From the NCBI GenBank assembly GCA_022705745.1, contig JAKJDW010000002.1, positions 1 to 64,000 on the forward strand: a DNA stretch of 64,000 nt. Reading direction: 5' to 3'. This document shows positions 48,279 through 56,129 of this stretch, one piece after another. The notes below the pieces were generated by a model. The model was not told the origin of the DNA. It saw only the letters and a program-made list of their open reading frames with translations, and made no database searches. Numbering within the stretch: the stretch's first letter is position 1; every line of letters starts with the position of its first letter. Origin of the DNA: Patescibacteria group bacterium (lineage in GTDB: Bacteria > Patescibacteriota > Gracilibacteria > Absconditabacterales > Absconditicoccaceae). Made by a program: the position numbers and the translations under genes.

Positions 48279-49448
48279 TTATTTTTGAATAAAATGAGAA
48301 AGTGTTTGTATTTTTTTTGGATTTATTTGATAAGAATCAGATACTATTTTTTCTAGAAAACTGGATGGCACTAAATGAAAATCTATCGACTCTTTCAAAT
48401 TCTTGCTAAGTAATCTAACGGAACAATATTTAAAACAAATTGCTAAGATTTTGAATGGATTTTTTGTGTTAGCAGATTTCACGAAATTTTTCAAATTCAA
48501 AGGAGTTTTTACCATATTTTCTTGTGTTACTAGACTTGGATATGGGTGGAAATATCACAAATCATGGTACATCATAATTTTTTTGGAATCATGAGTATTT
48601 AACTTTTTTATCGCTAATCGCCCTAAAAACCTCAAAGTGCTATGATACCAAATTATTTTTGGTTTGAATTTTTTGGATACAATTTTTATGCGAATAGCAT
48701 CTACAAAGTTGAATATTGCAAAAAACAATCCAAAATATTTACATAATTGTCCCAACTTTCAGCTTGGGATCTTGGCTCAGTAGATTTTGATTTCATATCC
48801 TTTTGATTCCAAAATATCTTTTACATCATGTATATATGTTTCTATTCATCATAGTTTATTTCTAAAATCTGAAACCATTAGTATTCTTTTTGGCTTTCAG
48901 ATGATTGGCGTTATGTTTTCAAGCCATTTTTCTACAGTATATTTGTTCGCTAATGTTTTAGCTTTTTTTCTTTCAGCTTCTATATTGATTCCGCCTTTAT
49001 TGTACTGATCTATAATCTCTGACATTTTATTATAAAGTTTTTCTGCATCTGTTTGTCATTCTGCTTTGGAAATATCGTATTTACTTTGGATAAATTGAGT
49101 CAATCATCATTTGGCAAATCCAATAACAGGTATTCACATAGATAGTGAATTTACCGCAGTCAGCCCAAAAGTTTCCAAAAAAGTAGATGGCATCAGACAA
49201 AAATCGCAGTTTTCTTGATATCTTTGAATTGTAGACAAAGTTTGCCATCAAAAAAAGTGTACAGAACTATGATCAGAGGCTAATTCTATCAGGTCATTCA
49301 CATACTTTCATTTCCCAAAAACATAAAAGGAAAAAGGAATAGCTCCGTGTTTTTTTATAAAAGCTTTTAGCATATCCAAAATTAGTCAAAATCATTTTTC
49401 ATCATCTAGTCTACCAAAAAATAATATTCATAATTTTTTGTCTTGCAT
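48279..49448 (-). CDS. GT4 glycosyltransferase with its two halves in swapped order
   Basis: The 389-residue product starts directly with the C-terminal half of a GT-B fold: LGILFFGRLDDEKGFGLILD, VHFFGWQTLSTIQRYQENCD, LMPSTFLETFGLTAVNSLSM and GIPVIGFAKGG (about 1-205). After a short linker comes an N-terminal half: KPKRILMVSDFRNKLGGIET, YIHDVKDILESKGYEI, KPKIIWYHSTLRFLG, DFHLVPSSFLEKIVSDSYQI and IQTLSHFIQK, where it stops exactly where a normal enzyme would enter the second half. The EX7E motif reads EX7N. Nothing resembling an N-terminal half precedes the start (in-frame TAA upstream). It is a natural circular permutation or fusion of two partial genes. Confidence 0.8.
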
Positions 49449-49515
49449 AGGTGTTTTTTAAGTATTTAAAGTCACTAGTCGTTCGTTAATAGAGTATTAG
49501 TAGTTAATGGTTCAA
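49449..49515. repeat. Left flank words of the four-helix-bundle gene
   Basis: 'agtcactagtcgttcgttaa' (from about 49468) resembles the reverse complement of the 'gactagcgactaacgact' cluster on the other side of the gene (49931-49952). No coding frame. Confidence 0.55.
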
Positions 49516-49875
49516 TTAGTGCTTACTTAATTTTTGAATTAGTCCGTTAATCATTTTGTTTATATTATCTATATCAGCACATAACTTATCACAAATTGTT
49601 TTTTCAATATAAGCTATTTCTTTAGATATGATCAGTTGCGTTTTTAGCTCAGAACAGCTTCATCTAGCAATGTATAAAAATCTTATAAACTCTTTGTCTG
49701 TTCACCTATTACATCATTCTGCAATATTGCTCGCAACACTGATCGCACTTTTTTGTAATTGCTCTTTAAGTCAAAAGTCTCTTTGTATATTAGGATTATC
49801 TTTTATTAAAAAATATATATTTTTAGCTAATTTTATAGAACTATTCCAAACTTTTAAATCTTCAACATTTCACAT
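49516..49875 (-). CDS. Four-helix-bundle protein (23S rRNA intervening-sequence family)
   Basis: The 119-residue product has the S23/IVP signature: VEDLKVWNSSIKLAKNIYFL, DFGLKEQLQKSAISVASNIAEGCNRGTDKEFIRFLYIARGSCSELKTQLII (the 'SiaSNIAEG..r.t..eF..fL.iA.GS..EletqL' block). Related proteins are found in rRNA intervening sequences and near retroelements; the function is unknown. The gene stands between imperfect inverted minisatellite clusters, and a decayed copy of its 5' end lies at about 50600-50690. ATG 49875 precedes a UGA Gly. Confidence 0.88.
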
Positions 49876-49949
49876 TTTAGTTATTGTACCAAATAAAATA
49901 TTTTCGATCATTGACTATAGACTAATGATTATTGACTAGCGACTAACGA
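49876..49949. repeat. Minisatellite of 'gact(a/t)' words before rdgB's end
   Basis: 'cgatcattgactatagacta', 'atgattattgactagcgact', 'aacgactatt' are strung together. The last unit overlaps the rdgB stop. The block 'aaataaaatattttcgatca' through 'ttgactatagac' is shared with 50644-50678. Confidence 0.7.
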
Positions 49950-50727: not shown

Positions 50728-51405
50728 CTAACGACTATTTTCTTGTTTCCATTTTTCAATTTCCTTATGATTTCAATTTAACAATACTTCTGGTACAGAA
50801 TATCATTCTACCTCTTGAGGTCTGGTATATTGTGGATGTTCTATATTTTCCATATTTTGGGAGATGGAATAGCTTTCTTCTTGTCGACTACTTTCTTCTT
50901 TGATTACTCCAGGGATTAGGCGAACCACAGACTCTGTCATTGTCATCGCTGGCATCTCTCACCCAAGAGTCACAAACTTTCAAATAGATATTTGATGAAA
51001 ATTGTCAGGATATTTGTCTTGAAAATATTGTACAAAACGATGATCTATCCCTTCATACCTAGCACATACAAAGATTAAGTTTTCCGTTTTTGAAAAAGAA
51101 TGAGCTGATTTTTGATTTCGAAATATATTGCTAGGATTTGGAAAAATAATTTGGAAAATTTCCTTACTTTTAAATTTCTTAATTATTGAATTTATTGAAT
51201 CTATAACAGGTTGTGCCATCATTAACATCCCAGTCCCTCACCCATAAATTTCATCATCTATTTGTTTGTGTTTATCTGCACAAAAATCTCTTGGATTGAT
51301 TATTTCGAAATCCAAAATATCTTTTTCTTGAGCTTTTTTGATCAATGAAGTTTCCAAAAAACTATCAAAAATCTCTGGGAATATAGATACATAATAAATT
51401 TTCAT
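50728..51405 (-). CDS. trmD: tRNA (guanine-N1)-methyltransferase
   Basis: The 225-residue product methylates G37 next to the anticodon to prevent frameshifting. Signatures are [53 protein letters not shown] (YGGG.GM block), [19 protein letters not shown] (c.rYEGiDeR), [28 protein letters not shown] (the SAM-binding knot), and [34 protein letters not shown] encodes GGG, IGKFV and VEGYS glycines. The last codons come from the minisatellite (QENSR). The usual neighbours rimM and rplS are absent. Confidence 0.95.
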
Positions 51406-52845: not shown

Positions 52846-55800
52846 TTATTGCAAAAATTGTCTTATATTTTCTGGGATAGTTTCACTATATATTGTAGTC
52901 ATACCAAAATCCCAAAGAATAGCTTTTACCTTATCTTTTATATTTAGGTCATTAGCAAAATCCGAAAAATTACAAGGACAAGAAAAGCACTCCTTTGCCG
53001 TTATGTTAGCTTCTTCATCATTAAGTTTATCAACATCAATTTCAGGACATCAATCAGAGTCTTCTATTCCATTGTAATTTTCCGGTATAGTAGGGCAGGC
53101 ATCCAAATGATCTGGTATTCAGTCTCAGTCTTCATCATCAAAATTTATTCCTCCTCAGATTCAAGTTCCCCCTCAAATTCCTCCTCAGATTCAAATTCCT
53201 CCTCAAATTCCTCCTCAGATTCAAGTTCCCCCTCAAATTCCTCCTCAGATTCAAGTTCCTCCTCAAATTCCTCCTCAGATTCAAGTTCCTCCTCAAATTC
53301 CTCCTCAGATTCAAGTTCCTCCTCAGATTCCTCCTCAGATTCCTCCTCAGATTCAAGTTCCTCCTCAGATTCCTCCTCAGATTCCTCCTCAGATTCAAGT
53401 TCCTCCTCACCCTCACCCTCATCCTAAATTATCATTTAATATGTTCGTTATAAACTCATCACATTCGTCTCCCCATCCATTGTTATTCAAGTCCATTTGA
53501 TTTAGATTTACATGAAACGGACAATTATCGAGACCATTATTATTATGCAATAACAAAATTTCTTCGTTTATATTGTCTGATGTAATGGAGCAATCATCTA
53601 ATTCAAACTCAATCAATCATATCAAATTTGGTAATCCATCTCCATCTATATCATCATCACAAATATCAGGAATTCCATCACCATCCATATCACATTCAAA
53701 TTGATCTAGTGTACCATTAAGATTAGCCTCCATACAAATATCATTTTGTGTTACCGTAATAGTAAACACGCTTTCCAAGGATATGTTTCAATCCAAAAAA
53801 ACGATATTTTTAGGTAAATAAACTCATTCTTTTATATATTGATGTTCAAATTTTTTTGGCCAAATATTCAATCAATTAGTAATTTTATTACTATTTCAAT
53901 CTCAATACTTATTAACAATTAGTATAATTTCAGGTAGAACTCATATTTTATTCATAGTAAATTCTACAGTATCAAAAACAGGGAGTATTGTTTTGTTAAC
54001 TGTTGTTATAATAGCATATGAGCTTTCCAAAGAAGCATCTCTAATATTTACTGTTAAAAAATTTTGTAGTTTTCTTCAGTTTTTTAGCAATATATTTTGT
54101 ATTATCACATAAGTCCCCACTTTTTTATAAATATAACCCATATTCAACAAACCATTTTTTATGACTTCTCAATTCCCCATATTCCACTCTATAGAACTTA
54201 TATCCTTTTCCTCAAATCCAAAAATATCTGTTTGCAAGTTTATTGTTTCTCATTTTTTTGGCATAATAGGATTTGCTCTTAAATTACTTCCAATCTCCCC
54301 ATCATCTCCCACCGCAATAATCACATTTGCAACAGAAAGTACTTGATTATTTTTTATTCACTTCAATGTAACCATATAAGATCATTGTGTTTTATATATT
54401 TTTATAACGGGACCTTTGTCAGTCCTTTCTATAATATCGCCCTCTCCCAAATTCCACTCAAATTTGTCAAAAGATCATTTGGTAATTGCAGTAAATTTAA
54501 TTTCAACAGGGGCCATTCACCCTAATTTGTTTGTAGCTATTTGCACACTATAATTTTCTGATGCATTTTTTCCAACAACAATAGTTATCACAGCATGAGC
54601 ATTATTATTAATTCACTCCGCATTGGCTTGAACTTGATATATTCATTCTTCCAAAAAAGTGTTACTTACTTCGCGTCAAACAGCATGATTTCAATCTCAA
54701 AAATCTCGAGTAATTTCTCATTGAACAACTCCTTCCGTAATAGCTTCAAAATTTACAGTCAAAGGGGCATTGGAAGGAATAAAATCACTTTTTATATACA
54801 TTCCCAAATTACTTTGATTTGCTCTACATGCATCTCCTATTCCTTTATTACCCGTATCTTTTTGGTCTGGATTTTTAATGAACAAACAATTATCTATTCA
54901 GCTTTCCCACTTTGATATAATAACTTTTCATAAATCATCTACAATTCCTATGGGGTTTCAAACACCGTCTCAATCAATATCAGAATCACACACATCTCAA
55001 ACTCCATCACCATCAGTATCTTTTTGACTTGGATTATAATGATTTGGGCAATTATCTTCAGCATTTAGTATTCCATCCTTATCATAATCATCATCGAAAT
55101 CACAATCAACTATTTTAAAAACATTATATAAAGTTTTTAAAACATATTCTCAACTTACCAATTCGTGAATTTGTCAGTCTTTAAATTTTTCATGTTCTAC
55201 TATATTATGATCATACAAGATATTCAATTCTCACACAGGCCAATATCATTGTTTGATGGCACCAAAACTCTGCATGCCACATTTGTTTAAGTTGAACATA
55301 CAATACTTGATATATGCTTGCAAAGATTCTTTGTTTGGTAAGATTCAAGATAGTCAATTTTGAGCGTGCATATTTATTATATCTCTGTCGTTTTTATTCA
55401 AATATTCATAAGGATAAGTTCATTTAGTCAATCAATCCATCCATTTTTTTATCTGTCACCAATCAGCTAAATATCTGTTAAATATATATTGATCACTAAT
55501 ATTCAAAACTACTTGTAAAAATTCTCCCACAGTAGTGTTTCTATGTCAACAAAATTTTCAATCACATACAGGGCTGATTCATTGAGGATATCATCTCATC
55601 CAATTATTATCACCAACATATGCTACACAGTAATAATATGGTTTTCAGTTGTAGTATGATGAGCCAAAAATAATATCATCAAAATCTTTTCCTGGTGTTT
55701 CAATAAAGTTCAACCGCCAATTGTTTGTATACTTTTCTATCATCCAATTTGGTGTGTTCACACAATCTTGACAGGAAACGGTATTCAAAAGTCTAGAAAG

Positions 55801-55944
55801 CTCGTATCTGCTTATTTGGTCGCTTTCTAATATCCTATCTACCTCTACTCCTGCAGTTCTTAAATCATTCAAAAATATTTCATAATTTCCCAATGAAATT
55901 CATAAAAATACAAAAAACACAAACATTAAGCATATTTTTTTCAT
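52846..55944 (-). CDS. Large secreted protein with PKD-like and calcium-binding repeats and Gly-rich array
   Basis: The 1032-residue product starts with a signal peptide (MKKICLMFVFFVFLGISLG). Then come about 250 residues without known domain, TSP3/EF-type calcium repeats (DFDDDYDKDGILNAEDNCPN, SQKDTDGDGVGDVCDSDIDGDG near 300), several PKD-like segments (LTVNFEAITEGVVQGEITRDFGDG; VEIKFTAITKGSFDKFEWNLGEG; SSIEWNMGNGEVIKNG), a second calcium repeat (FECDMDGDGIPDICDDDIDG near 760), a Gly-rich stretch of about 90 residues and a third calcium repeat before a Cys-containing end. Likely a surface adhesin. It is in one frame only if UGA = Gly, and the stop is TAA. Confidence 0.85.
53147..53422 (-). 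repeat. Minisatellite encoding (G-G-G-[I/T]-G-[I/T])n with UGA
   Basis: On the + strand units like 'cctcctcagattcaagttc' and 'cctcctcaaattc' recur about 18 times. On the coding strand they read as runs of Gly with Ile/Thr, the glycines written as TGA and GGA/GGG. A standard-code reader would see stops on this strand and instead a false Ser/Asp-rich frame on the other. Confidence 0.85.
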
Positions 55945-56129
55945 TATTTTTTTGATATATATTTGTACCATAACAGTTGTCATATCTGCTTTATAATATA
56001 AATATATGATACAATATTTATTATAAATAAAAAAATTTTTTTTTCAAAATCTTATGACTTTTTTCCAAATATGGATTGACTTTATCGCTTATTTAGTTTT
56101 TGTTTGTCAATCTTTTACCCTAACTCCCG

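Follow-up and report, generated by a model that had tools for sequence, protein, structure and literature searches.

The 64-kb window (the whole stretch of DNA analysed, 64,000 nucleotides) encodes a GT4-type glycosyltransferase of 389 residues in which the donor-binding half precedes the acceptor half. GT-B is among the largest enzyme folds, and its acceptor domain nearly always comes first. The swapped order is confirmed as a real, conserved feature of the gene, far beyond chance. Both halves are complete, and each is homologous to one part of a single parent enzyme, with their order exchanged and the termini at the old joint. We consider it very probable that the protein arose by natural circular permutation of a retaining GT4-type GT-B glycosyltransferase and was passed down through Absconditabacteria and Gracilibacteria.

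Reading frame, domain order and predicted fold

The gene lies at 48279–49448 on the minus strand, with its ATG at 49448–49446 and its stop codon at 48281–48279, and it is colinear in relatives. The reading frame is open only when TGA is read as glycine (code 25), and 15 TGA codons lie inside it. Gracilibacteria read TGA as glycine. The same code has been described in Absconditabacteria (PMC8080830). Two other readings of this interval were ruled out, as table 11 gives no ORF and the plus strand has no ORF of such length; gene calling with table 11 would fragment the permuted gene at its TGA codons. An in-frame TAA (49458–49460, minus strand) lies upstream of the ATG, and no second GT4 half besides this gene was found in the 64-kb window.

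All parts of the protein described here are encoded on the minus strand. The donor-binding half, which is C-terminal in canonical enzymes, comprises residues 1–185 (48894–49448), and the acceptor half, canonically N-terminal, comprises residues 188–389 (48282–48887) and ends at the former inter-domain linker (residue 389). Two Pfam donor models matched residues 3–149 above their cutoffs: Glycos_transf_1 (9e-16, 58.3 bits; cutoff 26.4) and Glyco_trans_1_4 (7e-18, 65.7 bits; cutoff 27). There was no match to the GT28 model Glyco_tran_28_C in the Pfam search, and the donor domain is of GT4 type. The Glyco_transf_4 match at residues 200–302 (7e-6) scored 26.6 bits, slightly below the cutoff of 28.5; a homologue in canonical order (L035) scored 32.1 bits. 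A PDB sequence search with the acceptor-half profile gave no significant match. The acceptor-first order of canonical GT4 enzymes is not found in the window protein, so we describe it as a permuted GT4 derivative.

The sequence motifs follow the same order. The GRLDDEKG motif (49392–49415) contains the donor diphosphate-binding residues Arg13 and Lys18, and R13, E17, K18 and G19 are invariant in 47 sequences. The sequence ETFGLTAVN (49149–49175) corresponds to the EX7E motif; its first glutamate, E92, is kept and likewise invariant, and the second position is asparagine. Among relatives this second position is N, T, E or D, with glutamate present in, for example, L017, L018, L021, L023, L024 and the canonical-order L035. 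The acceptor half carries the glycine-rich loop GGIE at residues 200–203 (48840–48851), in which G201 is invariant and G200 and E203 are conserved in at least 90% of the 47 sequences.

The AlphaFold model of the window protein, built with 47 relatives, has two domains (pLDDT 96.0, pTM 0.91). At the predicted new junction (residues 184–187, 48888–48899), the C-terminal helix of the donor half (172–183) is followed by the first β-strand of the acceptor half (188–195), and these two blocks have pLDDT values of 97 and 94. Model residues 1–178 align with the C-terminal halves of 2bis (242–417) and 3c48 (220–389), with Z scores of 18–20, and with that of 7vfo. Because whole-model searches with Foldseek and VIA returned the donor half only, the acceptor half was folded (pLDDT 91.7, pTM 0.87) and searched alone. 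It matched the N-terminal parts of GT4 enzymes, namely 6tvp (−1 to 175, Z 13.0) and 3c4q (1–199, Z 12.9), as well as the N-halves of 4xyw (1–165), 2bis (−2 to 221) and 8dqd; among the rows listed, Z ranged from 13.0 to 10.2. Within the same solved GT-B enzymes, the donor half matches the C-terminal end and the acceptor half the N-terminal end, and the modelled structure is supported as GT-B-like half by half. The coordinates and the upstream TAA given in the preliminary description were exact, the gene being on the minus strand and dependent on TGA as glycine. Its account of a donor half (FFGRLDDEKG...ETFGLTAVN) leading into an acceptor half that stops at the usual joint between the domains agrees with the Pfam order, and the comparison with canonical GT4 folds that it proposed gave a GT-B-like prediction for each half, not a non-GT-B structure.

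Distribution of the permuted gene

Protein and alignment-profile searches found the donor-then-acceptor order in one gene in 41 of the 49 genomes of Absconditabacteria, the window's family. The exceptions were G005 and G011, with split halves, G017, with the acceptor half only, and G021, in canonical order; no match for the permuted gene was found in G018, G026, G029 and G068. In a second family that reads TGA as glycine (f22, Gracilibacteria), 24 of 27 genomes had a match, and 21 had the permuted order in a single frame, including G292, whose start is incomplete. The positions of the halves were confirmed for 20 of the f22 loci. G206 gave a weak donor-type match only, and G128, G250 and G293 gave none among the 27 genomes searched. 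Near-complete genomes without the gene include G128 (100%) and G026 (91%). In two further f22 genomes the permuted gene is broken, by an in-frame TAG in G247 (L212) and by a frame change in G295. A frame change was also observed in the gene of L100 (Gracilibacteria). The TAG in L212 and the altered frame in L100 may each reflect decay, true fission or a sequencing error.

A scan of about 85,000 species genomes yielded 56 loci, nearly all from SR1/Absconditabacteria and Gracilibacteria, and half-specific profiles placed the donor before the acceptor half in practically all of them. Permuted homologues in independent assemblies share 24–61% identity, the complete genome RAAC1_SR1_1 (CP006913.1, L065) carries the gene, and the donor–acceptor junction is kept over some 30 genera. 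Other families in the class and phylum yielded no permuted order, and their GT4 genes found by these searches were all distant and canonical. Canonical GT4 paralogues in the same genomes were scored as canonical by the same profiles, which shows that the method does not create the swapped order. The dN/dS ratio of close pairs was 0.05–0.18; the permuted gene is under purifying selection. One locus, JAISMG010000037.1 (L074), is labelled Peribacteria yet holds the permuted gene, and this label looks wrong.

Origin of the swapped order and alternative explanations

The Absconditabacteria family holds permuted, split and canonical arrangements. In G005 (L031), the donor gene is followed after about 10 bp by the acceptor gene in another frame. 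In G011, the halves lie on separate contigs, and the acceptor gene has no obvious start codon. A donor-half remnant upstream of this lone acceptor gene was hinted at by a profile but proved unconvincing on inspection. The end of that contig (L032:1–330, G011:C31) translates to YTLSLHDALPI, which resembles a sequencing adapter, joined to the coding end. In G021 (L035), a single ORF has the canonical order, and its donor half falls within the family clade (support 100/97). The donor halves of L035 (428–1663, G021), L031 (4443–5970, G005), L084 and L095 have an insertion of variable length between FGxG and (Y/F)FG, which splits their profile hits in two; perhaps these donor halves mark a subclade that spans both families.

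Circular permutation is commonly explained either by duplication with trimming or by fission and fusion (PMC3320104). If tandem copies had fused and lost their outer halves, exactly the present junction would be predicted, and this classical model needs no fission and re-fusion. We give it slightly below an even chance: neither a tandem nor a partly trimmed intermediate was observed, and split halves exist in G005 and G011, though these split forms may be secondary. The two routes, duplication with trimming and fission with re-fusion in the other order, are equally viable, and the split members make us lean towards fission and fusion. As split and canonical relatives are still alive, the two can be tested against each other on one natural family.

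The best topologies of the rooted trees place G021 nested within permuted and split members, a position that would imply reversion to the canonical order; the tree of the donor half also nests it in this way. With G021 placed outermost, AU tests gave p = 0.012 for distant outgroups and p = 0.118 for closer ones, and p = 0.387 and 0.166 for the two halves alone. A clear reversion in G021 was therefore rejected as a conclusion, as the tests leave G021 viable as the outermost, ancestral form. We put forward only tentatively, and with some doubt, a scenario in which the gene was permuted in the TGA=Gly ancestor, split again in some descendants and rejoined canonically in the G021 lineage. If true, circular permutation would have run both ways within one enzyme family.

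Another explanation concerns function: the protein may have lost catalysis and serve a binding or scaffold role. The asparagine at the second EX7E position and the absence of the gene from a few near-complete genomes (e.g., G128 and G026) would fit such a loss. Several relatives, however, retain the second glutamate, and the glycine-rich loops as well as R13, K18 and E92 are invariant or nearly so across the 47 sequences, which makes a loss of catalysis improbable.

The donor and acceptor halves were searched separately against 380 genomes of the phylum. The nearest relatives, which are standard-code Patescibacteria, have the canonical order. The best three canonical matches of the donor half (G315:C6, G403:C109 and G389:C78) are also matches of the acceptor half, as are two more of its first eight (G416:C39 and G537:C10), and G389:C78 is the best acceptor-half match of all. 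The same canonical genes are thus nearest to both halves, which indicates that both come from the same GT4 subfamily and that one gene was permuted rather than two mixed. A two-gene hybrid, in which a deletion joined the donor half of one tandem GT4 gene to the acceptor half of a different one, would yield the observed order, and donor halves, being rather generic, match many GT4s; nevertheless, the five canonical genes shared by independent searches and the junction conserved over so many genera make it quite unlikely. The preliminary description had offered a natural circular permutant or a deletion between tandem GT4 genes. The former is borne out by same-order homologues in independent assemblies of two families and by the fold of each half; tandem GT4 genes were found at this gene's place in no close relative. 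The deletion does not hold as a local event, because the order is conserved, and survives only as the ancient duplication-plus-trimming model of origin. Although metagenome-derived assemblies can be mis-joined or collapsed, an artefact or a recent rearrangement in this one genome has practically no probability, because the order is conserved across the TGA=Gly lineage, in independent assemblies that include a complete genome, and under purifying selection, which points to a natural permutation.

Proposed function and comparison with known enzymes

In an ordinary GT4 enzyme, the last helix runs back onto the N-terminal domain and stops close to the N-terminus. In the permuted enzyme, the donor Rossmann domain would come first, and its last helix would be joined via about four residues to the first β-strand of the acceptor domain; the linker that normally connects the domains would be cut and supply both termini. 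The two domains are expected to lie face to face in the usual GT-B manner; Arg13, Lys18 and Glu92 would hold the nucleotide sugar, and the other half would take the acceptor. GT-B domains are able to combine into active enzymes when expressed separately (PMC10937113). We infer glycosyltransferase activity, the substrate, the mutual arrangement of the halves in solution and the route of origin. The C-terminal crossover can evidently take the place of the inter-domain linker, a property of use in glycosyltransferase engineering.

Canonical GT4 enzymes such as MshA, BshA, PglA, WbnH and archaeal glycogen synthase resemble the permuted enzyme in having two Rossmann halves, the GRLxxEKG donor motif, the first EX7E glutamate and the acceptor glycine loop, and each half of the permuted enzyme aligns structurally with the corresponding canonical half. 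Unlike them, the permuted enzyme has the donor before the acceptor half, termini at the inter-domain joint and, often, a replaced second EX7E glutamate. PglA and WbnH act on undecaprenyl-PP-linked sugars. In Gracilibacteria an O-antigen ligase (Wzy_C) gene usually precedes the permuted gene or overlaps with it, and FtsW and a Mur ligase are encoded close by; in two loci of Absconditabacteria (L083 and L173) a WecA-like phosphoglycosyltransferase gene lies directly downstream, and MurG is found near the gene in other relatives. These neighbours, together with the acceptor-half matches to PglA and WbnH, suggest a step in lipid-linked envelope glycan synthesis as the best guess, with a polyprenyl-linked intermediate of cell-envelope glycans as the most likely substrate. 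In Absconditabacteria and Gracilibacteria the permuted gene would also serve as a nearly universal envelope marker.

The closest precedent is the reversed Alg13–Alg14 fusion, a GT1/GT28-related enzyme of the amoebozoa Entamoeba histolytica and Dictyostelium discoideum (PMC8993221). As here, a GT-B enzyme has the donor before the acceptor domain, and split and canonical-order members also exist. The fusion differs in being eukaryotic, in belonging to a GT28-related family and in deriving from a split pair, whereas the present enzyme is GT4-type and bacterial, and its permuted single gene prevails in two families. Natural circular permutants are also known among GH70 versus GH13 barrels (PMC11046441) and transhydrogenases (PMC3320104). 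These share with the present case a permuted gene, retained active-site motifs and relatives that are split or in the other order; they have other folds, whereas here the cut falls exactly between two domains. The literature searched yielded no report of a permuted GT4 enzyme, an absence that does not prove novelty; the present one is of GT4 type, and its permuted form prevails in a lineage of bacteria.

The neighbours in the window itself, SecA, ITPase and trmD, are uninformative on sugars. The trmD gene (tRNA m1G methyltransferase; 50728–51405, minus strand) is a conserved neighbour in Absconditabacteria, near the permuted gene in 21 loci. A gene for a 23S rRNA-intervening-sequence/four-helix-bundle protein (PF05635, 4e-36; 49516–49911, minus strand) stands alone between the glycosyltransferase gene and the ITPase (Ham1) gene. 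Further along, the ORF at 52846–55983 (minus strand) encodes a 1045-residue protein that combines calcium-binding-like DxDGDG repeats with a long glycine array (GGGIGGGTGI); many glycines of the array are encoded by TGA codons, of which the whole ORF has 71.
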